Assembly (NCBI GenBank): GCA_020426575.1
Contig: JAGQPT010000351.1
Span: 1-32,424, forward strand
DNA from: Planctomycetales bacterium
Lineage (GTDB): Bacteria > Planctomycetota > Planctomycetia > Pirellulales > JAEUIK01
Direction: 5' to 3'
Length of the DNA stretch: 32,424 nucleotides
Of the stretch, positions 2,186-26,280 are shown piece after piece. The position numbers were made by a program, and so were the translations under genes. The notes beneath the pieces are model-generated. The model saw nothing but the letters and a program-made list of their open reading frames with translations. It searched no databases and was not told where the DNA came from. How positions within the stretch are numbered: position 1 is the first letter of the stretch; each line of letters starts with the position of its first letter.

Positions 2186-3208
2186 TCAGTCGTCGGTCAC
2201 GTCGTACGTCCGGCCTTCTAGTGCAGGACACTCCCGTCGCAGCCTGGCAACCGCTTCGTTGGACAGTGGTGTCCCAACGAAATCGACTGACTTGAGACTT
2301 GTCATTTGTGCAATAGCCTGAACAGCGTCGTCGCCAACGGGGCATTTGTGAAGCTCGATGTGCCCAAGGTTCTTCAGCCCCGACAGGTGGGTCGACCCTG
2401 AGCCCGAGATTGGAGTCCGCGAAAGGCCTAATCCTCGCAGGTTTGACAGGCGAGACAAAGCCTTAAGACCGTCGTCACTTATCGGCGCACTTTTGATTGT
2501 CAAACTTTGGAGATTGGCCAATGACCCCAGGTGGGCTAAGCTCTCGTCGGTTACTTCCTCACTGTCTAATATCAAGTACTCCAGCCGTTTCAGCCCTCCA
2601 ACATGACGAAGGCAATCCTCTGTTACCATCGTTCCACTCAACTGCAGATACCAGAGGTCCCGCAATTTCAAAAGCCAATCCCAATCTTCAACGCCGTCGC
2701 CTCTACCGGACAGGACGAGGCATTTCAGGTTCGCCAAGCGGCCTAACTTCCTGCGGCCTTCGTTGCTTAGATCGTCGCCATCGAGCTTGAGGCCTTGAAG
2801 GCTCGTCGCACCTGCTATCGAATTGACGCCGACGTCGGTGACGATTCCGGAGCTAATCTCCAATTGGTCTAAGTGAGGTAGGTTCGCTAGATGAGCGACG
2901 ATCTCATCGCTCGCGATGTTGCGTATGAATCGCACGTGCACGACGCGTGACACGAAGTCCTTCGGCAGCGCGCGGTCAAGCCACGTTTCTTCACGTAGTT
3001 CGTGGCTTAGAACTGTCGCTGGACCGATAGTCGGTGGATCAACGTCGTACGTGACCTCAGCTCCCGCGGCTCGCAGCGCCGCAACGGCATCGCGCTGCCT
3101 CAGGGCGTGTCGCGTTTGCACTCCCAACCAGATTCCTAGGCATAAGACAACCAACAACAACGAGCGGAGGCTGAACCGAAACAAACCTCGATAGTGTCGC
3201 TGCACCAT
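2186..3208 (-). CDS. Membrane-anchored leucine-rich-repeat protein
   Basis: 340 aa from the ATG at 3208. An in-frame TTG at 3241 is possible but has no ribosome site. A basic N-terminus is followed by RFSLRSLLLVV and one transmembrane helix (about residues 13-31). Then comes a short linker with a DAVAALRAAGAEVTYD segment, which is common in planctomycete anchored LRR proteins. From about residue 95 to 330 there are ribonuclease-inhibitor-like LRRs of about 24 aa with the pattern LxxLxxLxLxxTxItDxGLxxL. The role is probably protein-protein interaction at the cytoplasmic membrane; the partner is unknown. It resembles the LRR gene at 8874-10256 in architecture but is much shorter. It is bracketed by copies of the purF 3' end, so it may be an acquired or duplicated segment. 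Confidence 0.85.
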   Translation of the reverse strand: MVQRHYRGLFRFSLRSLLLVVLCLGIWLGVQTRHALRQRDAVAALRAAGAEVTYDVDPPTIGPATVLSHELREETWLDRALPKDFVSRVVHVRFIRNIASDEIVAHLANLPHLDQLEISSGIVTDVGVNSIAGATSLQGLKLDGDDLSNEGRRKLGRLANLKCLVLSGRGDGVEDWDWLLKLRDLWYLQLSGTMVTEDCLRHVGGLKRLEYLILDSEEVTDESLAHLGSLANLQSLTIKSAPISDDGLKALSRLSNLRGLGLSRTPISGSGSTHLSGLKNLGHIELHKCPVGDDAVQAIAQMTSLKSVDFVGTPLSNEAVARLRRECPALEGRTYDVTDD

Positions 3209-3307
3209 CTTTCGCGCACTCTCGCTGATTACGCACGACAACAGGAGGCTGCCTCATCTTCCCCGATTTTGGTTGGGCAGGCCGGCGACGTCCAGCGCTA
3301 GCGCCCA

Positions 3308-8873: not shown

Positions 8874-10256
8874 TCATGGGGCGCTGGTCGACGGCGTCGG
8901 CTGTGTCCAACGGATTTCACACCCAGGCCGCGCTTCACGCAAGCGAGCGACTCCGGCTGCGGTCACGTTAGTTCCCTCAAGGTTGAGTTGCCGTAGTGAG
9001 GCAACGTGTTCAAGGTGCGTGAGACCGGCATCCGAAATCCTACAGCGTTCCAGATCGAGCGATGAAAGTTGGTTCATCCCGGCGAGGTGAGCGAGACCGT
9101 CGGCGGTGACAAGAGTGCCGCCAAGATCGAGTGCTTCGAGGTTCCGCAGGTCCTCCAGGTGCGCCAACCCCGCGTCGCCGACGTTGGTATTGATGAGTCT
9201 GAGATATTGCAGGTTGGTAAGACGGTCCAGCTGCGCTAGATCGGCGTCGGTGATGCCAGTCGAGTCGAGCCGTAGTGACACCAGCGCGGGAAGCCGACCG
9301 ATTTCTGCGAGCCCAGCGGTGGTGACAGGGGCGGCCGATAGGTTGAGCATGGTAAGCCCGCTGCCGCGCAGATGTTGCAGGCCGACGCCGGTCACACGTG
9401 TGCCTTCCAGATCAAGTCTCTGCAGCTTGGCGAGTCCGGCGAGGTGTTCCAAGCCGGTATCGCTGACATTGTCGTTGCTGAGGTCGAGAAAAGTGAGGTT
9501 CACGCAGCCGGACAAGTGTGCCAAGCCGGCGTCGCTGATTCTCGTACCGTTGATCTGCAGACTTTCCAGATCGACGAGCCCGGCCAGCGCCGCCATGCCG
9601 TCGTCGTCGAGATTGCACAAGCAAACCGCGACGTAGGGGTAACCCGCAAGGTCCGTCGCCGCGAGCACCTGGTTGTCGATTTGCGACTGACTCAGGCTGA
9701 TCGCGAAGGGGTCGGCAAAGAAGTCTTCGCCGAGAACGTCGATCAGCCAGCTCGGCAGCAACCAACCTTCGTCGGTACGAAACCAGTCACCTTCGCGCCG
9801 CACGCTGTAGCGAACGCTCACGCCCATCGGCTCGAGCGCGGCGATCGCGCGGCGGCGGCCCTGGATGTCGTACCAGCGCTTGCCCACCAGGGCAAACAGC
9901 ACGGCCGCGATGGTCATCATCACAAAGAGCGTCCGCAAGCCGAAGCGAAAACGGTGCCGCAAGGTGCTGCCGGCCACGAGCCAGACAAACATCACCGCCA
10001 GCACGGCGCAGAGCGCCTGGCCGTTGACCCACGCGGCGCCCAGATACCAGAACGCGGCCAGCACGGCGAGCGTGACGGCCAGCGCGCCGAACGTGAGCAC
10101 GCGGCGCTCGAACAGCAGCGCCCGGCGCCGGACGGGCAAAGTCCCGGCCGCCGACGATAGGGCCTGCACAGACGCCGTCTCGGGCGTCGCTGCGTCGGAA
10201 GTCGTTGCGTCGGGCGCTGCTTTGGCGGACGTTGCTGTCGAGGTCGTATCGGCCAT
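8874..10256 (-). CDS. Polytopic-anchored leucine-rich-repeat protein
   Basis: 460 aa from the ATG at 10256, chosen because AGGGGGAC lies 5 bases upstream. An Ala/Thr-rich N-terminus of about 45 residues is followed by three membrane helices (about 53-73, 79-97 and 105-125). The third is introduced by RFRFGLRTLFVM. After RRRAIAALEPMGVSVRYS comes a soluble domain, then about ten LRRs of 24 aa (roughly residues 215-445) with the pattern LxxLxxLxLxxTxVtDxGLaHL. The tail, IRWTQPTPSTSAP, is low-complexity. It is most likely a membrane-held interaction scaffold; the partner is unknown. It is divergent from the glutamate-synthase-like gene. Confidence 0.88.
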   Translation of the reverse strand: MADTTSTATSAKAAPDATTSDAATPETASVQALSSAAGTLPVRRRALLFERRVLTFGALAVTLAVLAAFWYLGAAWVNGQALCAVLAVMFVWLVAGSTLRHRFRFGLRTLFVMMTIAAVLFALVGKRWYDIQGRRRAIAALEPMGVSVRYSVRREGDWFRTDEGWLLPSWLIDVLGEDFFADPFAISLSQSQIDNQVLAATDLAGYPYVAVCLCNLDDDGMAALAGLVDLESLQINGTRISDAGLAHLSGCVNLTFLDLSNDNVSDTGLEHLAGLAKLQRLDLEGTRVTGVGLQHLRGSGLTMLNLSAAPVTTAGLAEIGRLPALVSLRLDSTGITDADLAQLDRLTNLQYLRLINTNVGDAGLAHLEDLRNLEALDLGGTLVTADGLAHLAGMNQLSSLDLERCRISDAGLTHLEHVASLRQLNLEGTNVTAAGVARLREARPGCEIRWTQPTPSTSAP

Positions 10257-10293
10257 CCGCTGTCCCCCTGGTTTCCGCCGAGTGCCGCGCCGA

Positions 10294-10314
10294 CGACCGC
10301 CCCGCAGGCGGTCG
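10294..10314. other. Hairpin upstream of the LRR gene
   Basis: Perfect 8-bp inverted repeat CGACCGCC/GGCGGTCG with a 5-base loop, lying 38-58 bp upstream of the LRR start codon in the divergent promoter region. It could be a leader hairpin or an operator; no other evidence. Confidence 0.4.
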
Positions 10315-10330
10315 TGTCGGGCGCACTTCA

Positions 10331-10339
10331 TGCTACACT
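10331..10339 (+). promoter_or_regulatory. Extended -10 promoter-like element
   Basis: TGCTACACT matches an extended -10 (TGn followed by TACACT) about 75-85 bp upstream of the glutamate-synthase-like gene. No good -35 is visible, as is often the case with extended -10 promoters. Confidence 0.35.
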
Positions 10340-12286: not shown

Positions 12287-12529
12287 ATGCAAGCGACGCG
12301 ACTGCGAGTATACTACGGACCCGAGTCAGCTCCGGCCGCGCTGGCCGATCACGACGTCGACGTCGATTCGGTCACGGTGCCACTGGGACACATCCTGCCG
12401 TTGATGCTCGAGGCCGTTCGCTCCGAGCGGACCTGGCTGGAAGACTTCGAAGGCGACGAGGTGACGCTGTCGCGCGACCTCTACGAGGTGATCCTCGCCT
12501 ACCAGCACTGCCGCCGACCGTCGGCCTGA
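12287..12529 (+). CDS. Small conserved-type hypothetical protein
   Basis: 80 aa, acidic, starting MQATRLRVYYGPES. The ribosome site GGGAG lies 7 bases before the ATG at 12287, which supports translation. The layout is a short beta N-terminus (TRLRVYYG), an acidic strand/turn region (ALADHDVDVDSVTVPLG), and two amphipathic helices (HILPLMLEAVRSERTWLEDF, then TLSRDLYEVILAYQHC). No signal peptide, membrane helix or catalytic motif is seen. The family is not recognised with certainty. It is followed about 140 bp later by a strong terminator and may be monocistronic. Confidence 0.7.
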   Translation: MQATRLRVYYGPESAPAALADHDVDVDSVTVPLGHILPLMLEAVRSERTWLEDFEGDEVTLSRDLYEVILAYQHCRRPSA

Positions 12530-13091
12530 CCGCCGCGTGCAGCCACCACCAGCCGGACGCTGCGCTGGTGGTTTGACGGTCGCGTTGCCGGCGCAGCGAC
12601 GTCGATCGAGCCGCCGAATCACGGCATGCTGTCGGTGCAGCAGGTTGTGAATCAACGAGTGTAGGGAAAACAAAAAAGGACCGCTGATGCTGCGGTCCTT
12701 TTTCATGCGCGGCGGAGAACTGCAACTCGCCCGACACGCCGGGAAATCAGAAAAAACGTCCACGGCCGAAGGGGCCCCTGCAGCCGCGGACGCAGGCCAC
12801 TTGTTCGGCGCCTCCCTGGCCACGTGGTCTATTGCGGGGGCAATCGTAGCAGCGGCGCCACCGTCTGTCAGGCACCTATTCCACTATTTTTTCGCAAAAC
12901 ACCGCGCACCGGTTCTTTGCGTGCATCTTGCCCGCCTCGATTTTTGCAGGCGCACTGCCGAAGCGGTAAGCTGAACGCGCCGCGCCAGGGATTGCTCCAC
13001 TTCGGCAAGTCCTTCTTCGACAAGTCCTTGGCCGCGACGACCGACGCCAGGCCGGAACGACGCCAAACGTGCCGCCGGTAAATCGGCTCGC
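12530..13091. other. Gene-free spacer with terminator
   Basis: 562 bp. It has an 8-bp-stem inverted repeat at 12545-12572 (ACCACCAG/CTGGTGGT, 12-base loop, no T-run) and the strong terminator at 12673-12703. After the terminator no frame has coding character; short open frames here are Arg/Cys-rich without ribosome sites. Downstream it must contain the promoter of the three-gene membrane cassette, but no box is clear. Confidence 0.45.
12673..12703 (+). terminator. Rho-independent terminator
   Basis: Perfect 12-bp stem AAAAAGGACCGC/GCGGTCCTTTTT with a 7-base loop, ending in TTTTT. Because the other arm begins with a run of A, it could also work in the opposite direction. It closes the transcript of the 80-aa gene. 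Confidence 0.85.
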
Positions 13092-13991
13092 GTGTCACCC
13101 AGGGAATCGATCGTGCCAACCGTGTTACTTGCCGCTTACCAAGCCATGGTGACGACGCCGGCCTGGGTTTCAGCGCTCTGGTTGGCCTGCGGAGGTCACG
13201 GCATGCGGAGCGGTTGGGTGCTGGCGGCGGCGCTAATCATCGTCGCAACCGTCGCTGGCTTTCCCGGCGTCGCGCTTTTGTCGCCCGGATTTTTTGCCTA
13301 CGTGCTTTCGGTGATCGTCGGCCAGTGGCTGGCCATCTTTGCCGCTGCCACGGTGATGCGAAAGGCTGGCTGGGAATTCAAGCGCGCGGCCCACCGTCAT
13401 GACGACGAAACCACGTCCACGGCCCGACGCCCACAACTGAGCATCCGCGAAGTCATCCTGGCAACCGTCGTATTCGCGATGTGGCTCGCCGTGTATCGCC
13501 AGGCCGTCTCGCTCGCCCGTTTCGATTTCAGCGGGACCGGCTCGGATGCGTCCATGAAGATCGCCACGCAAGTTGCCGTCGGCGTGCGGACCATCTCGTC
13601 GTCGATCGTCAACGCAATCCAGATCTCGATCGCCGCACTGACAATCGGCCGAAATCGCAAGGTGCTGCCCGGATTCCTCGCTGTATTGGCCTTCAGCGTT
13701 GCCGGATTGACGGTTTTCGAGATCGCCGCAATCATCACCGGAGCACCTCGTGTTTTCGCTCGGGCGTATCTCGTCCACAATCTTACCTGGGACGTCTGCG
13801 AATTCCTTCTGATCGGCCTGGCCATGCTCTGGCTGCGGCGCAGGGGGTATGATTTGGAATGCGGGGTCAACTCCCGGCCCGGGCAGGAAACCAACGACGC
13901 GGCAATAACATCGGCACGCGACCCGGCTGCACGCGAAGTCCACGGCACATCCGTCGCCCACGACACAACGGTCGCCCACGAACACTTATGA
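13092..13991 (+). CDS. Polytopic membrane protein, cassette gene 1
   Basis: 299 aa from a GTG at 13092; the later ATG at 13146 is an alternative, and neither has a clear ribosome site. About seven hydrophobic helices: three in the first 90 residues, a cytoplasmic-type linker (residues 91-113: KAGWEFKRAAHRHDDET...), then the anchor motif PQLSIREVILA (114-124) opening a second bundle of about four helices. The C-terminal tail of about 45 residues is hydrophilic and ends HEHL. The stop codon overlaps the next ATG (ATGA at 13988-13991), so translation is probably coupled. The function is unknown. Its halves resemble those of the two following proteins, suggesting paralogy. Confidence 0.75.
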   Translation: MSPRESIVPTVLLAAYQAMVTTPAWVSALWLACGGHGMRSGWVLAAALIIVATVAGFPGVALLSPGFFAYVLSVIVGQWLAIFAAATVMRKAGWEFKRAAHRHDDETTSTARRPQLSIREVILATVVFAMWLAVYRQAVSLARFDFSGTGSDASMKIATQVAVGVRTISSSIVNAIQISIAALTIGRNRKVLPGFLAVLAFSVAGLTVFEIAAIITGAPRVFARAYLVHNLTWDVCEFLLIGLAMLWLRRRGYDLECGVNSRPGQETNDAAITSARDPAAREVHGTSVAHDTTVAHEHL

Positions 13992-14902
13992 ACGAATCGA
14001 CCTCAGCGGCCGCCGGTGACCATGGTGCACATCGGCAGCGCGTCGTGCTCGCCACGCTCGTCGTGCTCTACTTGGCCCTGCTGGGGGCGACGGTCGTGTG
14101 CTGGCCTGAGGACGGCAGCGACCCCACGTTCTATTGGCAGGTCGAGGTGGTCTGTGGCGAGCTCTCCGCCCTGGTAAGCCTCGCGGCACTGGGAATGGCG
14201 GCTCGCTCGGTTCCACTGGCAACGCGACTGACGACCGCCATGTTCTTGCCCGCCGCCGTCTGCCTGACGCTGATCGTGACGTTCACCCGGGCCGGAGGAT
14301 TCACCAGCACGGCAGTGATCGTGCTGTTGGCCGCGTACGTGACGACGGCCCACCTGGCCCAGGGTATTTTGATGACAAGCGTGATGGTTGTACCCGACTG
14401 GTGGCGTCGCTTCCGCGCCCGCCGCAACCGCGCTGCTGCACCGGCCAAGCGACCGACGATGTCCCATCAGTTCGGCCTGCGACACGTGATCCTCTGGATG
14501 TTCCTCACCGGGATTGTGCTCAACAGCGTGCGCGGCGTCGACTGGCACGACATCCCCGACTACGAGTGGCGCGACCTTGGTGAAGTCGACCCCGTGCTGC
14601 TGTTCTATTCGAGCCTCGGCGCGTTCCTGGCCTTTGCCGGCTGGACCACGATCGTCTGCGTCGGCGCTCACCGCGGCTGCGTCTCCTGGCTCGCGGTCGT
14701 CGCGGTCAACGCATTAATGGCCGGGGTCACTTACCTGTTGTGTCGCGTCTGGAGCGACGGCAACGCCCAGGAACTGCCGTACGTCGTGATCTGGCCGGTC
14801 ACGCATTTCATCTGTCTGGCCATCAGCTTGCTGATCTTGCGCTTGGCCGGAACTCCTGCCGCGGAGAAAAGCGTGGCGCCGGCGGGGCCGTCCCACGGAT
14901 GA
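13988..14902 (+). CDS. Polytopic membrane protein, cassette gene 2
   Basis: 304 aa, starting MNESTSAAAGDHGAHRQRV. The start is fixed by the ATGA overlap with the preceding gene. Eight hydrophobic helices are arranged four plus four. Helices 1-4 lie within residues 18-135 and are followed by an Arg-rich linker (WWRRFRARRNRAAAPAKR). The motif HQFGLRHVILW (160-170) opens the second bundle, with helices to about residue 292. The short extramembrane segment WHDIPDYEWRDLGEVDP is acidic and aromatic. No transporter signature is recognised. The stop again overlaps the next gene by ATGA (14899-14902). Confidence 0.78.
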   Translation: MNESTSAAAGDHGAHRQRVVLATLVVLYLALLGATVVCWPEDGSDPTFYWQVEVVCGELSALVSLAALGMAARSVPLATRLTTAMFLPAAVCLTLIVTFTRAGGFTSTAVIVLLAAYVTTAHLAQGILMTSVMVVPDWWRRFRARRNRAAAPAKRPTMSHQFGLRHVILWMFLTGIVLNSVRGVDWHDIPDYEWRDLGEVDPVLLFYSSLGAFLAFAGWTTIVCVGAHRGCVSWLAVVAVNALMAGVTYLLCRVWSDGNAQELPYVVIWPVTHFICLAISLLILRLAGTPAAEKSVAPAGPSHG

Positions 14903-15807
14903 ATCCAGCGCGGCGCACTTCCGGACGAAGCATCGGCCGCCTCACCGTCGGCCGGACGGCGATTGGGCTGGCCGCGCTGGCGCTCACCCTTGCCGTCGCA
15001 GTACTCAGCGTCCCGCATCCGGCGGCGCGTCGAACGCTACTGCTGGCGGCGTTGGTGTACGGCACAATTTCGGCCGCCGTCAGCCTCTCGGCCTGGTGGC
15101 TGACTCTCCTGCCTCGACGTCCCCAGCGTGAATGGTCGCGACATGCCCTCGTGGCCGCGGTTGTCGTCTGGCTGGGTCTCACCTGGCAGGTGACACCGAC
15201 AATGGCCGAACCGGTCGACGAGCGCACCGCGGCCGATGCGATGGCCATTGCTTGGGGTTATCAGTGGGCGCTGCTGTGCGCAATGCTCTGGTGGACACGA
15301 CGCGGCAGTGGCCGTTGGGCGATCGACACCCTCTCGGAAGGTGCGTCCCACGGCACGAACGGCGGGCCGCGGTTCACGATCCGTGGCATTCTTATCGCGA
15401 CGGCCGTCGTCGCGGTCGTGTTGGCCGTTAGCCGCGAAACCTTGTTCACGAGCGACACGCCCCGCCCCACCATGAGTTGGACGATCGTCCGCACGCTGCT
15501 GATCTGCGTCGCCGGTGGGTTTTGTCAGGCCGTCGTGGGGCTGGCGGCGTCGACATTGGCGGCCTTTGGGCGGGCAGGCGCAGCCGATTCACCCGTCGGG
15601 CGAATCTGGTGGCGACTGCCGCTCAGCGTCGCCGTTGCCGCCGCCGCTTGCCTGTTGCAGACGGCTTGCCTGCTGCTGGTTGCCGGCACTGCCGATGCGA
15701 TTCCCCTTGCCGCGGCCGTTGGCGGCGTCGGCGGCGTTCACTTCACCGCGCTGGCCACCGTGCTCAGCGTGCTCCGCGACGCGGTGGCCCGGCGACGTCG
15801 CACCTGA
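14899..15807 (+). CDS. Polytopic membrane protein, cassette gene 3
   Basis: 302 aa, start fixed by the ATGA overlap at 14899. It has the same four-plus-four helix plan as gene 2: helices at about 21-37, 46-70, 83-99 and 115-132, then a hydrophilic linker, then the anchor motif PRFTIRGILIA (156-166) leading into helices to about residue 295, and a basic end, RDAVARRRRT. No catalytic or transport motif is recognised. It is the last gene of the cassette: the next gene is convergent, only 10 bp away, and no terminator hairpin fits between them. Confidence 0.78.
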   Translation: MNPARRTSGRSIGRLTVGRTAIGLAALALTLAVAVLSVPHPAARRTLLLAALVYGTISAAVSLSAWWLTLLPRRPQREWSRHALVAAVVVWLGLTWQVTPTMAEPVDERTAADAMAIAWGYQWALLCAMLWWTRRGSGRWAIDTLSEGASHGTNGGPRFTIRGILIATAVVAVVLAVSRETLFTSDTPRPTMSWTIVRTLLICVAGGFCQAVVGLAASTLAAFGRAGAADSPVGRIWWRLPLSVAVAAAACLLQTACLLLVAGTADAIPLAAAVGGVGGVHFTALATVLSVLRDAVARRRRT

Positions 15808-15817
15808 CGTCCCATCG

Positions 15818-16564
15818 CTAGAGCAGGCTTTCGAGCAACAGACGCATCTTGCGCATTTCGGCGGCGTGGTCGACGTCTTCGAGCGGCTGAATGTCGACTG
15901 CCAGGGCGCGATCGTAGCCCGCCCGGTCCAACTGCCCGATCAACCGTCCGTATTCGATGTCGCCCTGCCCGATTCGCACGAGCAACTCGTTTTCGGTCGA
16001 GTCACGAAGCTGCACGTGATAGACGTAGCCAAGCAGCTTGTCGTAGCTGCGCCCCGCGGGGCCGACGACAAAATGGCTGGGATCGAGCGTCACGCCGAGC
16101 CCCTTGACGTTGTCGCAAAGCACGGTGACCGTGTCCGGGTCCTGGCTCATGCGATCGACTTCGGTCTTGATGCTCACGAGCAGGCTTTGCGCAGCGGCAA
16201 TCCGCACGAGTTCGCGGAGGCGTTCCACCTCGGCGTTGAACGGTGTGCCGAGTTCCGACGACGGCACGGTGATCGAAAACACCTTCATCGTCTTGGCCAA
16301 CTGGCAAATCGAGGCGAACGTGGCGTAGTCCTGCTCGCTCGTGCCCACCATGTCGACCGTGATCGCCACGGGAATCAAGCGCAGCAGTCGGCCACATGTG
16401 CGAACGGCCTCCTCGACGTCAGCGTGGACGGCCGACGGGCGCAGGTGCCGGCCGTCTTCGCGCAGGGCGAGTTCCACGGCCGTGTACTCCAAGTCGACCA
16501 TTCGGTGTAGCGCTTCGTCGAGCGACAAGTCGGGGAAACAGTCGGTCGAGGCGGCTACGATCAC
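15818..16564 (-). CDS. Sugar phosphate isomerase/epimerase-like TIM-barrel protein
   Basis: 248 aa from a GTG at 16564, chosen because AAAGGAG lies 7 bases upstream; extensions beyond it are low-complexity Arg/Pro sequence. It has the AP-endonuclease-2/xylose-isomerase-like TIM-barrel pattern: an N-terminal strand VIVAASTDCFPDLSLDEAL, TAVELALREDGRH, AITVDMVGTSEQ, FSITVPSSELGTPFN, LLVSIKTEVDRM, LGVTLDPSHFVVG (metal-type D and H), YVYHVQLRDST and ALAVDIQPLED. Divalent-metal residues are plausible at the D/H of DPSHF, the H of HVQLRD and the acidic residues in IKTE and DIQP. The substrate is unknown. It is divergent from sppA. Confidence 0.8.
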   Translation of the reverse strand: MIVAASTDCFPDLSLDEALHRMVDLEYTAVELALREDGRHLRPSAVHADVEEAVRTCGRLLRLIPVAITVDMVGTSEQDYATFASICQLAKTMKVFSITVPSSELGTPFNAEVERLRELVRIAAAQSLLVSIKTEVDRMSQDPDTVTVLCDNVKGLGVTLDPSHFVVGPAGRSYDKLLGYVYHVQLRDSTENELLVRIGQGDIEYGRLIGQLDRAGYDRALAVDIQPLEDVDHAAEMRKMRLLLESLL

Positions 16565-16946
16565 GTCGCTACTCCTTTGCGTCTGTCGGGCGTCCAGATG
16601 CACGTGCCGGCACAAAACAGCCGGCCTTGTCAGCCGGCGACGCACGCGCGGTCCCGACTCACCTGCCTCGGGTCGGGACGAGTCGGCTAGCTTACAACTC
16701 GGCCGGGCTGCTTGGCAACACCGCGCCGCGCCGACGGCGCCGCACGGCCAATCTCCGCCCACGCCCGCGTCGATCGAGCCCCTGCGCGCAGTGCCCTACT
16801 TCGCACTCTGCCGCCGAGGGCGTAGAATGCCCGCTGTGTCGCCAGATGGCGCCGGTGCTAGCATCGGTGCCATCTGGTGCGCCGGCCCGGCGACGACACG
16901 CCGCAGCGTCCCCACGCCCGCAACCGTCCCCAGAGGAGCAGAAGTG
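16565..16946. other. Divergent isomerase-sppA intergenic region
   Basis: 382 bp with no supported gene. The main structure is the 36-bp palindrome at 16842-16877. Plus-strand open frames here are Arg/Pro/Ala-rich continuations upstream of sppA and have no ribosome site of their own. Confidence 0.5.
16842..16877 (+). promoter_or_regulatory. 36-bp near-perfect palindrome
   Basis: Two 18-bp arms meet without a spacer around GCTAGC. Only two positions break perfect symmetry, and in plus-strand RNA both become G-U pairs, so an 18-bp hairpin forms with no mismatch. It ends 69 bp before the sppA ATG. No T-tract follows, so it is unlikely to be a simple terminator; an operator or a stabilising leader hairpin is more plausible. 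Confidence 0.65.
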
Positions 16947-18101
16947 ATGACAGCCGAATCCCCCGACCCACGCGAAGAACCCGCAACGGTCGAAGCCGAG
17001 GCGATCCCCACCGGCGCGACGGCGGCAAGGGCGCCACTGGCTCGGCCCGCCGCACCAGCCCAGTTCGCCGCTCCCCCGCGCCGCGGCGGACGTGGCCTGC
17101 TGATCTTCTTTTTATTCGTGCTCTTGTTCTTCCTCGCCGGTTCGATGCTGATGAACCTTGGCCTGATGGCGTCGCTCGGCTCGTCCAGCAGCGTCGAACG
17201 ACCACTCACCGAGCGACACGTCGCCCTCAGCCAGACCGGCACCAACAAGATCGCCATCATCGAAGTCTCGGGCACGATCACTGAAACCGACGGCGGCTTC
17301 GTCAAACGCCAGATCGACCAGGTCCGCGCCGACGACGACGTCAAAGCCGTGATCGTGCGGATCGATTCGCCCGGCGGCACGGTGTTCGCCAGCGACTACC
17401 AGTACCATCACCTCAAGAAACTGGCCGAAGAACGCGAGATTCCGCTCGTGGTGAGCATGGGCAGCCTCGCCGCCAGCGGGGGCTACTACGTCGCCATGGC
17501 CGTCGGCGACACCGAACGCACGATCTTCGCCGAACCGACCACCTGGAGCGGATCGATCGGCGTGATCATGCCCCACTACGACGTCTCCGGCCTGCTCACC
17601 GACTGGAAAATCGAAGACGATTCAATCGTCAGCCATCGCCTCAAGGGCATGGGCAGCCCCTCGCGACCCATGACCGAAGAAGAACGCAAGATCTTCCAGC
17701 AACTGGTCACCGACAGCTTCGACCGCTTCAAAGAAGTGGTGCGCTCCGGGCGACCCAAGTTCGCCGAGAACGAAGCGGCCCTCGACGCGGTCGCCACCGG
17801 CCAGGTCTTCACGACACCGCAGGCCATGGACAACGGCCTCGTCGACGAGGAAGGCTTCCTCGAAGACGCCATCGACCGCGCCGTAGAACTCGCCGCCATC
17901 GATCCCGACAACACCGAGGTCGTCAAATACACGCAGCCAGTCGGACTCATGGACGCCTTGATGTTCGGTGCCCAGGGTCGCGCGGCGATGTCCGGCAGGT
18001 CGCTGCCCGGTTCGCTCGACGGCCTTTTGGACCTGGCCACGCCGCGGGCCTATTACCTCTGGACCTGGCCCGCTACCGCCGGCCTCGGCGCTCCGAACTG
18101 A
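16947..18101 (+). CDS. sppA: Signal peptide peptidase SppA (S49)
   Basis: 384 aa from the ATG at 16947, preceded by AGAGGAG. It is a membrane-bound serine protease that degrades leftover signal peptides and some membrane proteins. A Pro/Ala-rich cytoplasmic N-terminus (residues 1-49) is followed by one transmembrane helix (about 50-70) and a single S49 domain: IAIIEVSGTI (102-111), VIVRIDSPGGTVFASD (135-150), nucleophile Ser177 in GSLAASGGYY, GSIGVIM (202-208), and Lys233 in SHRLKGMGSPSRPMT as the probable general base. It is the short 36K-type form with one protease repeat rather than the ~600-aa E. coli form. The SDR gene follows 74 bp later on the same strand. Confidence 0.93.
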   Translation: MTAESPDPREEPATVEAEAIPTGATAARAPLARPAAPAQFAAPPRRGGRGLLIFFLFVLLFFLAGSMLMNLGLMASLGSSSSVERPLTERHVALSQTGTNKIAIIEVSGTITETDGGFVKRQIDQVRADDDVKAVIVRIDSPGGTVFASDYQYHHLKKLAEEREIPLVVSMGSLAASGGYYVAMAVGDTERTIFAEPTTWSGSIGVIMPHYDVSGLLTDWKIEDDSIVSHRLKGMGSPSRPMTEEERKIFQQLVTDSFDRFKEVVRSGRPKFAENEAALDAVATGQVFTTPQAMDNGLVDEEGFLEDAIDRAVELAAIDPDNTEVVKYTQPVGLMDALMFGAQGRAAMSGRSLPGSLDGLLDLATPRAYYLWTWPATAGLGAPN

Positions 18102-21717: not shown

Positions 21718-23394
21718 CTATTTGTCGTCTTGCTCGATGGCAAACAGGTGCGTACGGTTCGAGATGTAGAGCACGTTGTTGGCCACGACCGGCGTGCTGT
21801 AGACGCTGTTGCCCATGTTGATCTCAGCGATCTCTTCGAGCTCGCGACCGTGGGCGAACACGGCCACGTCGCCGTCTTCGTCACCGATGTAGACCTTGCC
21901 GTCGACCACCAGGGCCGAACCCCAACAGGCGGCCAACATGTCGTAGGTCCAAAGCGGTTCGCCGGTCAGCGCGTCGATGCAGTGCAACAGGCCGCTGAAG
22001 TCGGCGATGTACAGGATGTCGTCCTTGATCGTTGCCGTACCGCAAGTGCGGTGCATCGTTTCCTCGAAGTCGATGCGATTGTCGTTGTTGGCGTCGAACT
22101 CGCTGTAGTGCCAGACAACGCCCGTGTTCGGGTTCGGGCGGGCGACTTCACCCTCGGTGCCCACGACGGCCTGAATCCGCTTGTGGGGGATCGGCGTGTT
22201 GGGATCCGAGAGATTGAACGCCAACTCGGGGCTGATGTCGCCGCGCTTGGTCGGATCGATGCACCAGAGATGGCCCACGCCTTCGCCGTGCTCGGGGTCC
22301 TGGCCCACGGCCACGTAAACGCGATCCTTATACACCACCGCCGTGCCGATCACGTTGTTGCGCGTGCCGCGGCCGCCCAACTCCCACTTCGAATCTTTAG
22401 GGTTGGCGTCGAAGCGCCAGAGCAGTTCGGGCTTGCCGTCGCTGCCAGCGTCGCCGCGGAAGCTGTAGACCCAACCGTCACCGCCCGGGAAGATCACCTG
22501 CGGCACGCCGTCGATCACGGCGTAGGTGGGCGACGACCACTGGCCATGCAGAATGTTCGTGCCGGGTGAACGGTCGGTCCACAGTACTTCGCCGGTGTTC
22601 TTGTCCATCGCCATGAAGCTGGGCGCGTCGGGTGAAGGCAGATTGATGTGCGAGGCGTCGACGCCGTTCGACGTGTTGACAAACAGGATGTCGCCGGCCG
22701 AGGTGACCGAGCAACTGCACATGTTGTGCTGCGACGTGCCCAATTCGTCCATCATGTTGAAATTCCAGACGATGTCGGCTTCACCGTCGGCCTCGACCTT
22801 CTCGTCCTGGAAGGGACCGTCGTTCTCGCCATCGCGGAAACCCTGCGTGTCGAGACAGGCCACCTCGCCACGGCTGGTGACAAACCACGCCCGATCGCCT
22901 TCGACCAGCGGAGCGCAGCAGATGCCTTGCAGCGGCCAATCGTGCACGCGGCCCGTGGGAAGTTTTTCACTCGAGTGTTGCCAGAGGAAGCTGCCGTCGT
23001 CTTCCTTGAACGCCAGCAGACAGCCCAGGTCGACGTTCGAGGGATAACGTTCCAGCCAGCCACCGCCGTTGTTCGTGCCGGCGTAAATCTGACCGTTCGC
23101 GACCACTGGGTTACCGTAGCTCTGCGACCCCAGACGGGCGACCCACTTGATGTTTTTCGCCGATTTGGGATCCCACTCGCCGGTCTTGCGGTCGAAGCGG
23201 CCGATGTTCCACTCCGTGGGGATGTTCGTTCCCTCGGGAGTGTTGTTGCGGATCGAGTTGCCGCCCCACTGCGACCAGTCTGCCGCCCCCACGCCGTTGA
23301 GCGGCGCCGGCTCGGCGGCAGCGGCCACCACCGTCATCGCCAGACACGCTGACACGATCACACTTCCGGCCGCATAACGTTTCACGTTTACCAT
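21718..23394 (-). CDS. Secreted PQQ-type beta-propeller protein with EF-hand loop
   Basis: 558 aa from the ATG at 23394. Its signal peptide starts MVNVKRYAAGSVIVSACLAM and has a probable cleavage after the Ala run before EPAP. The mature protein is built of PQQ/quinoprotein-like blades: W-x-W openings (WSQWGGNSIRNN), NPVVANGQIYAGT, MAMDKNTGEVLW, TAVVYKDRVYVAVGQDPEHG, CIDALTGEPLWTYD and STPVVANNVLYISN. At about residues 434-445 it holds DANNDNRIDFEE, a complete EF-hand loop. The PQQ-dependent dehydrogenase active-site signature is absent, so an assembly or outward-facing binding role is more likely than an enzyme. It lies 109 bp downstream of a second propeller gene. Confidence 0.88.
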   Translation of the reverse strand: MVNVKRYAAGSVIVSACLAMTVVAAAAEPAPLNGVGAADWSQWGGNSIRNNTPEGTNIPTEWNIGRFDRKTGEWDPKSAKNIKWVARLGSQSYGNPVVANGQIYAGTNNGGGWLERYPSNVDLGCLLAFKEDDGSFLWQHSSEKLPTGRVHDWPLQGICCAPLVEGDRAWFVTSRGEVACLDTQGFRDGENDGPFQDEKVEADGEADIVWNFNMMDELGTSQHNMCSCSVTSAGDILFVNTSNGVDASHINLPSPDAPSFMAMDKNTGEVLWTDRSPGTNILHGQWSSPTYAVIDGVPQVIFPGGDGWVYSFRGDAGSDGKPELLWRFDANPKDSKWELGGRGTRNNVIGTAVVYKDRVYVAVGQDPEHGEGVGHLWCIDPTKRGDISPELAFNLSDPNTPIPHKRIQAVVGTEGEVARPNPNTGVVWHYSEFDANNDNRIDFEETMHRTCGTATIKDDILYIADFSGLLHCIDALTGEPLWTYDMLAACWGSALVVDGKVYIGDEDGDVAVFAHGRELEEIAEINMGNSVYSTPVVANNVLYISNRTHLFAIEQDDK

Positions 23395-23503
23395 CGGGGG
23401 AGAACTCCAGTTCATCAGCTTGATCAGCCCAGTGACTTTGAAATGCCGAGTGGCGGACGGCGTCGGTGCGAGGCCGCCCTGCACGTGCGATCTGCCGGCA
23501 TGG

Positions 23504-25774
23504 TTACGGCGCAGCGTCTTCATTCGGATATACGACGATGTTATCGAGAAAGATCTCGGCGTCGGTGGCGTTGCCAAACAGCCCCGGCGACCCCACCCGG
23601 TTCGGGCTCGTGTCGGCCGCCGTGATCGTCCATTCGTCAGGTTCGGGCTCGTCGCGCGGCCAAACCTTACCGGAAATCACCGCGACGTCGTCCTGGTTCT
23701 CCGCCCGCAGCTTCATGCGGTACCAGACGTCGGGTTGCCACTCGAACGGCACGTTGACCGCCATTCTCAACTGCGGCGCCCACGTGCGAATCTGCAACTG
23801 ACGGCTCGCCCCCATCATGTCGAACGTGTAGCGCTGGGCGACCAATCCGATGTCCGGCATCTTGTCGTCGCGAATCGAACCACGCACGTCGGCCTCGATC
23901 GTGTAGTCGTGCAGGTCGGTTTGCCCCATGAACGCCTGGCTCCGCGTCCCCTTGGGAATCGTCGTCACCTTGACCATCACCGGGTTGCCGTCGACGTCGC
24001 GGATCTGGTGGCGATACCGGGCGCCCACCCAGGTGATCGGCACTTCGCCCGCCGAGAAGTCGAACTGCCAGGGCAGATCGGGCACGACACGCACGCGTGC
24101 CGATCCGCTGAGATCACCCACTTTGGCCGTCACGGTCACAGCGTAGTGGCCTTGATCCTCGGCTGTGAACGTGCCGGTCGAAGCGTCGATCTGACCACCG
24201 CCGGCCACGCTGAACTCGGCCCGCGCGTCATCAACTCGTTGACCGCGCGCGTTGAACAGCCGCACGCGGTAGTCGATTTCATCGCCAGGGCGCACCAATG
24301 CTTCGGCCGGCACGACCTGCACCCAGGCCGGCTCGGGGTCGTCCGTCACAGGCGCCTCCTGCGGCTGAGGCGGCGCCGGATTGACGCCAGTCTCGGCGTC
24401 GGGGTCGCCGATGCAGTACAGCGCCTGCCCGGTGGGAATGTAAATCCTGCCGTGCGAGACAATCGGCGAACCGTTGCAACTGTCGCCCTTGAGCCGCTGG
24501 GTGTGGACTACTTCGACACCGTCAGGTCCACCCGGCCTGAGAATCCAGAGCCGCCCGTTGGCCTCGTTCGCATAAATCTTCCCGTCGGCGTATAACAGAC
24601 TCGCCCGCATCACCGTGCCGAGTTTCTTCGGCCGATCCAACAGGGTCTGCCCGGTGGCGACGTCCACCACGTCGAGCCCGCCGCGGTCTTCGGCGACGTA
24701 GAGTTTGCCGTCAACCAGCAACGGTGAACTCTTGCCGACCATCAATTCCTTGATGATCCAGAGTTCGCCGCCGTTCGCAGCCAGGTCGCCGGTGAGCGTG
24801 CCGTCCAGCGCCACCACGGCGCCCATCGTCACGTCGTCCATGTTCTCTTCGCTCTGCCCCATGTAGACTCGGCCCGCCTCGTCGACGATCGGCGATACGT
24901 TCAATCCACGGCGGGAGAATTGGTAGTTCCAAACCTCTTTGCCGGTGCGGGGCTGGAAGGCGTACACGCCGCCGTCACCCGAACCGAAGATCATCAGCGC
25001 CTGACCGTTGATCACCGCGATCACCGGCGTGCTGTACGTCGTGTCGTCGGGCAGCGGACGCGTGCCGTTGAACCAGACGATCTCGCCGGTGTTCTTGTCC
25101 ATTGCCACGAGCTGATGCGACGGCTTGGCCTTGTCGCCCCAGCCGATCACTACCGAACTGGTGATCACCAGGTCGTCGAACAACACTGGCGTGTTGGTGC
25201 GGCCGCCGTACGTGCTCAAGAAACCAAGCTCTTCGCTGAGCGAGCGGCTCCAAACGGTTTCGCCCGTGTTGGCATCGATGCAGAGGAACAAGTCGCCCAC
25301 GCCCTGGGCGTAGATGCGCTCGCCGACGGGATCGCCGACCAGGCTCGCCCACCCCACTCGTTCACCCGGCACGTCGGACGAGAAGACGTTGAAGCGATTC
25401 TCCCAGAGGGTCTCGCCGGTGGCGGCGTCGGCGCAGACGACGCGCTCGCCTTCTTCGGGAGTGCCGGCGGCGGCGCGGTTGATCATGTAGACGCGGCCAT
25501 GCATCACGATCGGCGTCGAGATGCCGCCCATCTCTTCATTGGCCCAAATCAGGTTTTCGCCGTCGGGGCTCCAACTGTCGACCAGTCCCGTCTCGAGCGA
25601 CACGCCGTTCTGATACGGCCCACGCCAGCTCGTCCAGTCGAGCGGATCGACCTCGCCGGCAACGAGTTGCGGTCCGCCCCACCACAGTCGGGCGGCGGCA
25701 AGAGTCAGTAATAGTGACGAGACAACGACGGCGCAGCGCATGCGCGCGGATTTTACATGCATCGGTCGGCTCAT
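23504..25774 (-). CDS. Secreted PQQ-type beta-propeller with C-terminal concanavalin-like domain
   Basis: 756 aa from the ATG at 25774; ATGs at 25762 and 25741 are alternatives nearer the signal sequence MRCAVVVSSLLLTLAAARLW. The propeller spans about residues 35-450, opening WTSWRGPYQNGVS with repeated PIVMHGRVYMIN, CADAATGETLWENR, CIDANTGETVWSR and MDKNTGEIVWFNG blades. A Pro-rich linker (PAPPQPQEAPVTDDPEP) is followed by a beta-sandwich, Big/cadherin-like domain (LVRPGDEIDYRVRLFNARG). The last ~190 residues are a LamG/DUF1080-like jelly roll (HDYTIEADVRG, FEWQPDVWYRMKLRAEN, AEIFLDNIVVYPNED). A periplasmic or surface location is likely, perhaps carbohydrate or polymer binding. It is the first gene of the propeller pair. 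Confidence 0.88.
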   Translation of the reverse strand: MSRPMHVKSARMRCAVVVSSLLLTLAAARLWWGGPQLVAGEVDPLDWTSWRGPYQNGVSLETGLVDSWSPDGENLIWANEEMGGISTPIVMHGRVYMINRAAAGTPEEGERVVCADAATGETLWENRFNVFSSDVPGERVGWASLVGDPVGERIYAQGVGDLFLCIDANTGETVWSRSLSEELGFLSTYGGRTNTPVLFDDLVITSSVVIGWGDKAKPSHQLVAMDKNTGEIVWFNGTRPLPDDTTYSTPVIAVINGQALMIFGSGDGGVYAFQPRTGKEVWNYQFSRRGLNVSPIVDEAGRVYMGQSEENMDDVTMGAVVALDGTLTGDLAANGGELWIIKELMVGKSSPLLVDGKLYVAEDRGGLDVVDVATGQTLLDRPKKLGTVMRASLLYADGKIYANEANGRLWILRPGGPDGVEVVHTQRLKGDSCNGSPIVSHGRIYIPTGQALYCIGDPDAETGVNPAPPQPQEAPVTDDPEPAWVQVVPAEALVRPGDEIDYRVRLFNARGQRVDDARAEFSVAGGGQIDASTGTFTAEDQGHYAVTVTAKVGDLSGSARVRVVPDLPWQFDFSAGEVPITWVGARYRHQIRDVDGNPVMVKVTTIPKGTRSQAFMGQTDLHDYTIEADVRGSIRDDKMPDIGLVAQRYTFDMMGASRQLQIRTWAPQLRMAVNVPFEWQPDVWYRMKLRAENQDDVAVISGKVWPRDEPEPDEWTITAADTSPNRVGSPGLFGNATDAEIFLDNIVVYPNEDAAP

Positions 25775-26280
25775 GACAAACAAGGAAGGTCGTCCGGTTG
25801 GGCGGGTTGGGAGGGCTCAGGCGTGTCATTCTAACATACGACGGCGACATACGGCGGGCAAGCAGCCTGACCAAGGGCATGCCACGCAATACCCCGTGGG
25901 AAACTCGACTTTCGCCGCGAATTTGCCTCCCGACGACTGCGTGCGGCACCCCCAATAAGGGTCACCCCTTAGCGATGAATGCAGTGAGTCCCAACGATGT
26001 TTTCTTCGCGTCCGACACTCCCGAGTATCGCCCACTCGGAGAGTTTGTCCCGACCTGGGCAGCGGGCCCGTTCCCTCGGCGAGTTCATTCCCCTGAACCG
26101 TGTCCCGTAGGGCAAGGGCGGCCTGACCGTTCGCTTGTTCGCCGAAGGCCGCGATGACCCAATCCCCGAACCGGCGCGTCTGTCCGGCGTCGGAGTCCTC
26201 GTCGGTTTCGGCGCGCTTCCCACGCTCACCGGCTGCCGCCCGCGGGGGTTGAGTACCAGTGGTACCTTCTTTCAACGGGA
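25775..26280. other. Gene-free spacer upstream of propeller genes
   Basis: 506 bp. It must carry the promoter of the propeller genes; TAGAAT near 25830-25840 on the minus strand is a possible -10 but has no well-spaced -35. A small inverted repeat TAAGGG-TCAC-CCCTTA lies near 25957-25972. Minus-strand frames across the spacer (for example one reading RDKLSEWAILGSVGREEN) have protein-like stretches but no ribosome site or recognised family. They could be a decayed gene or an intergenic repeat. Confidence 0.35.

Follow-up and report, generated by a model that had tools for sequence, protein, structure and literature searches.

Three overlapping genes of a Planctomycetales bacterium assigned by sequence to one membrane protein family

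Genes A, B and C, which overlap end to end on a 32,424 nt stretch of DNA (hereafter the window), are by their sequences anciently diverged paralogs of one inner-membrane protein family of this order (Table 1). Our best overall explanation is that these are coupled ancient paralogs forming a heteromeric, probably non-enzymatic assembly, and we give this whole reading an even chance. Its parts differ in strength: the family identity of the three proteins, judged from profile alignments, is the probable part, and a hetero-oligomeric inner-membrane complex of A, B and C is a tentative proposal that falls somewhat short of an even chance. What is new here is that these proteins are recognised as a family, with an internal repeat, an invariant arginine and coupled arrays. 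The novelty of the family and fold is relative to Pfam, NCBIfam and PDB and is not one of mechanism; uncharacterised entries surely exist elsewhere.

Table 1. Features of the A-B-C region (positions in the window)
Feature	Position	Strand	Description
Gene A	13092..13991	+	Polytopic membrane protein, 299 aa, GTG start; family profile E 1e-16
FxLR module and helix in A (QLSIREVIL...)	13422..13505	+	Module profile
ATGA overlap, A stop / B start	13988..13991	+	Sequence
Gene B	13988..14902	+	304 aa, 8 predicted membrane helices, N-in/C-in; family profile E 3e-17
Arg80 codon of B	14225..14227	+	Invariant in 65/65 aligned members, A and C included; start of TM3, cytoplasmic side
FxLR module and helix in B (QFGLRHVIL...)	14459..14536	+	Weak, 4.4 bits; start of TM5 in the model
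ATGA overlap, B stop / C start	14899..14902	+	Sequence
Gene C	14899..15807	+	302 aa, about 8 membrane helices; family profile E 2e-14
FxLR module and helix in C (RFTIRGILI...)	15364..15438	+	Module profile

Genes and family membership

The sequence-only reading had described three coupled genes for membrane proteins of about 300 aa, joined by ATGA stop/start overlaps. This description is confirmed to the nucleotide, with both overlaps exact at 4 nt. Third-position GC peaks in the forward frames of A, B and C (0.73, 0.83 and 0.77), and the opposite-strand ORFs are therefore shadows of these frames. Many such long shadow ORFs overlap in the region, as would be expected if A, B and C were not genes and merely frames held open by high G+C. 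The codon-position GC, the in-frame overlaps, the family homology and the confident structure models all speak against this. It has practically no chance of being correct and was dropped, since codon bias and homology rule it out.

The true start of gene A is unsure. The GTG at 13092 has no clear Shine-Dalgarno sequence, and an alternative ATG at 13203 has GGAGG 7 nt upstream, at 13191–13195. Counted from the GTG, homology to the relatives sets in near residue 11, and the family profile covers residues 11–267. The region preceding the ATG aligns with TM2 of the relatives, and 13092 was therefore retained as the start. At the overlaps, a ribosome finishing A would reinitiate on the ATG there and translate B, and would go on to C in the same way (termination-reinitiation). 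The three proteins would thereby be co-produced in comparable quantities and enter the membrane next to one another.

Upstream of gene A there is a small ORF at 12287–12529 (+) of 80 aa (MQATRLRVYYGPES...), preceded by GGGAGTG, which from its sequence looks like a real small acidic protein. Between it and gene A lies an inverted repeat, GGACCGC-TGATGCT-GCGGTCC, at 12673–12702, flanked by A and T runs. This repeat, seen by eye and absent from the repeat scan, is terminator-like in both directions.

Pairwise BLASTP detects no similarity among A, B and C. An initial A+B+C profile searched in 197 same-order genomes found a few proteins built alike, the strongest at E 6e-5. By inspection, these relatives have about 270–350 aa, with four helices, a linker, an F-G-L/I type motif and further helices. 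A profile of seven of them (A5), with the window proteins left out, retrieves B (4.9e-10) and A (1.8e-7) unaided in their own genome. Iterative searching of 43 fetched loci then gave a profile of 65 sequences, all from outside the window, which scores A, B and C at 59, 61 and 51 bits (E values in Table 1). The maxima for shuffled A, B and C are 16–24 bits, and none of 1000 shuffles reaches the real scores. This indicates that A, B and C are deep paralogs, so that the paralogy proposed earlier is borne out at the profile level. There is some circularity in the test, because the first relatives were found with the A+B+C profile. Reversed B still scores 18 bits against the 65-sequence profile, hence hydrophobic composition adds some of the signal.

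It could be argued that homology is confined to the FxLR-plus-helix module, around which A, B and C would consist of unrelated hydrophobic sequence. The empty BLASTP comparison would agree with this, as would the earlier leave-out test with the seven relatives, in which masking of the motif left A not significant and B and C marginal. With the 65-sequence profile masked C likewise stays weak and is not significant alone (E 0.77, 1/1000 shuffles), but masked A (3e-10) and B (3e-6) remain significant with 0/1000 shuffles. In addition, the N- and C-terminal parts of A each score separately and the invariant arginine lies outside of the motif. Homology limited to the module is therefore very improbable.

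No known transporter, secretion or enzyme signature had been seen in the three proteins, which agrees with the searches of Pfam, NCBIfam and PDB. A, B and C have nothing significant in Pfam and NCBIfam. When the 65 members were searched against Pfam-A and NCBIfam, no family was reached by more than one member even at E<=0.01. The family profile matches no PDB sequence (best E 0.23), and Foldseek found no match at E<=0.001 in PDB (best fold E 0.27, TM about 0.2) or in the viral models.

Distribution and tandem arrays

Of the 397 genomes searched in the order, 121 have a match to profile A5 at E<=0.01. Many of these matches are complete or almost complete in length; among the weaker ones, coverage is often limited to the motif region. 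The family, carried by roughly a quarter to a third of the genomes sampled from this large order, offers a concrete entry into membrane biology of the lineage that is so far unexplained. Its profile, its invariant arginine and its array pattern make it readily testable in cultured relatives.

Most family loci carry a single gene, and hetero-oligomers can therefore not be general for the family. Arrays of 2–4 adjacent members were found at 12 loci outside the window (L239–L246, L255, L259, L266 and L273), 10 of which had been fetched for their closely spaced matches, so that the frequency of arrays is not estimable from them. Counting the window, 9 of 21 junctions are exactly 4 nt ATGA overlaps, two of these being the window's own, and the remaining junctions are overlapping or no more than about 45 nt apart.

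In the tree, the first genes of L240, L241, L242 and L273 fall into one supported clade and their second genes into another, and L243 and L245 have positional orthologs in common. The array orthologs of the relatives have dN of about 0.21–0.30 against dS of about 0.66–1.18; by this measure both array positions are under purifying selection in these relatives. The members of L244 group together with strong support and those of L239 with moderate support, and on the tree these two arrays look like local duplications. A, B and C fall apart on the tree, each on a long branch of its own. B is placed weakly (SH-aLRT 86) with L276 and with L247, which is from the same GTDB family; C is placed with a group from another such family (SH-aLRT 95), and the position of A is not resolved.

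Conservation of the A-B-C order in other genomes, to which the sequence-only reading had looked, was not found. In 57 relatives of the same order no homologue of A or C reaches E<=0.001. Searches with A and C in 58 same-order genomes, with A and B in the own genome and with C in genome contigs returned self matches only or none, and the triplet is absent from the conserved TIM-barrel/SppA locus of related genomes. Other members of the family do stand in recurrent tandem arrays, several of which have conserved positional orthologs. The TIM-barrel/SppA locus itself is represented in the window at 15818–18101 by a divergent pair, a xylose-isomerase-like TIM barrel and an SppA-type peptidase, which stand side by side in at least 8 related genomes.

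These distributions bear on a second explanation, repeated tandem duplication and divergence, in which each protein would work alone or as a homo-oligomer, and the overlaps would reflect compact operon packing only. The predominance of single-gene loci, the lineage-specific arrays (L244 and L239, with the support given above) and the lack of conservation of the A-B-C set elsewhere are all consistent with it. Set against these are the first and second genes of four arrays, which are separate retained orthogroups under purifying selection, and the window itself, where three deeply diverged genes have stayed adjacent, with overlaps in frame for coupling. Duplication without a joint complex is unlikely on this evidence, if far from negligible.

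Plasmid records yielded nothing. Among 113 neighbour proteins of family genes there is no dominant partner and no functional hint, the commonest being PQQ_2 (6), methyltransferase (5), SHD1 (4) and MlaE (3). The leading place of PQQ_2 at these other loci probably reflects its mere abundance. In the window, two adjacent PQQ/BamB-like beta-propeller proteins are encoded at 21718–25783 (-).

Predicted fold and possible assembly

AF2 models were built with a family alignment (A6) of 65 rows, comprising A, B, C and 62 relatives. The model of B (pLDDT 79, pTM 0.75) has eight long helices. That of the relative L256 (pLDDT 88, pTM 0.84) has eight membrane helices in two four-helix units, in the order four helices, strand 139–143, four helices, strand 294–298. 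The strands appear to coincide with the conserved GWRL and GYRL stretches, and the second unit opens with the FxLR-type helix. The N- and C-terminal halves resemble each other (hhalign 27.9, against a maximum of 15.1 in 60 local shuffles and 12.1 when reversed), so that an internal direct duplication is likely. In 65/65 aligned sequences there is more K+R on the modelled inner side, in keeping with the positive-inside rule. For the family, the models predict an eight-helix fold whose N and C termini are both cytoplasmic.

The plan of four helices, linker, FxL-type helix and three helices is seen for B in the model, and the hydropathy of C is consistent with it. In A only about three helices precede the motif helix, which means that the family TM1 is not visible in this protein. 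The C-terminal strand region after TM8, R..G(Y/F).L, reads RRRGYDL in A and RLAGTP in B, and in C it has the R without the G. The most conserved columns of the family hold arginines at the cytoplasmic edge, a Trp, and small residues or Pro; no acidic residue, His, Ser or Cys is among them. The absence of such columns makes enzyme or classical transporter roles mildly less likely, and suggests that the assembly is probably non-enzymatic. A, B and C would then associate as a heteromeric membrane assembly that could serve as a scaffold, a sensor or a set of accessory subunits.

The Mrp antiporter subunits are an example of a heteromeric inner-membrane complex made from adjacent paralogous genes. 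A, B and C would work alike, as paralogous polytopic subunits from one operon, but neither by sequence nor by fold do they match any family of this kind in Pfam, NCBIfam or PDB. A transporter or channel is itself an alternative, in which two parallel four-helix repeats would form the pathway and the paralogs would give heteromeric transporters of differing specificity. The 4+4 internal repeat, the conserved Pro and Gln in the helices and the multigene arrays could be accommodated by this. The lack of any transporter match by sequence or fold in the same three libraries, and top conserved columns without an acidic or other typical substrate residue, make it rather improbable.

The FxLR helix module

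A, B and C are all polytopic and carry a basic linker followed by LSIR, FGLR and FTIR, respectively, at the start of a membrane helix. A shared plan built on a (F/L)(S/G/T)(L/I)R motif had been proposed. The motif is indeed present in all three at a helix start, but it does not define the family, since the module is also found on unrelated proteins of the order. The R of the motif is not conserved within the eight-helix family; the motif therefore ties A, B and C only loosely, and the body of the protein bears the family identity.

A module profile made from other examples in the same genome, without A, B and C, matches A and C strongly and B weakly. This draft genome has 29 copies, a count inflated by the profile having been trained on the same genome. 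The module is present in 47 of 58 searched genomes of the order, with up to 74 copies in one, and in 19 of 144 genomes sampled from elsewhere in the phylum, mostly as one or two weak matches. Among 45 genomes of other phyla it is absent (control genomes were obtained through an S12 scan). Its carriers include LRR proteins, small 4-TM proteins and zinc-ribbon proteins. A literature search with the motif strings FSLR and FSLRTLL found no paper.

The FxLR segment is a shared juxtamembrane module on the cytoplasmic side of the membrane, and a membrane factor common to its carriers may read it. Taken further, FxLR would be an order-specific sorting or assembly code read by that factor, and the coupled eight-helix arrays would be heteromeric hubs of a new fold that receive LRR receptors and 4-TM FxLR proteins; this extension is a long shot.

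Three types of known sequence can be compared with the module. The order-specific FxLR single-TM proteins with LRR ectodomains share with A, B and C the module of basic stretch, F(S/G)LR and membrane helix, and their genes, too, form overlapping tandem arrays in related genomes (L065, L074 and L078). They carry a leucine-rich domain, have between one and three membrane helices and lack the eight-helix body. The type IV pilin-like N-methyl leader consists of GFTLxEL and a hydrophobic helix, and is found with DUF1559/SBP_bac_10 in planctomycetes. At the membrane edge it resembles the motif of A, B and C (F-[ST]-L-x-x-L), whereas the A, B and C motif has no Gly(-1) and no consistent Glu(+5), is not N-terminal and is part of a polytopic body. 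A pilin-like export signal was rejected, the motif being mid-protein after Q or R, with no G(-1) and no Pfam N_methyl match. PF07595 is a planctomycete extracytoplasmic signal, RRLxxExLExRxLLA (PMC8567305). Like FxLR it is a short lineage-specific motif across many unrelated proteins, but its sequence differs, and A, B and C have no PF07595 match in the Pfam search.

In the window, the LRR proteins at 2186–3241 (-) and 8874–10331 (-) bear the FxLR helix module, the second with two helices before it. Tandem arrays of other FxLR proteins were seen in one genome (L065, L070, L074 and L078) and at L064, L067, L068 and L207. These arrays contain LRR proteins, 4-TM proteins with a soluble tail and small secreted-type proteins, and some have 4 nt overlaps. 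Elsewhere in the own genome (L073, C316), two adjacent proteins of 159–181 aa consist of an FxLR helix and about three helices; in sequence these look like the C-terminal half of the eight-helix family present as separate genes. Pilin-like N-methyl leaders at L017 and L029 have weak scores with the FxLR profile, a resemblance that may be convergent or a hint at the origin of the module.
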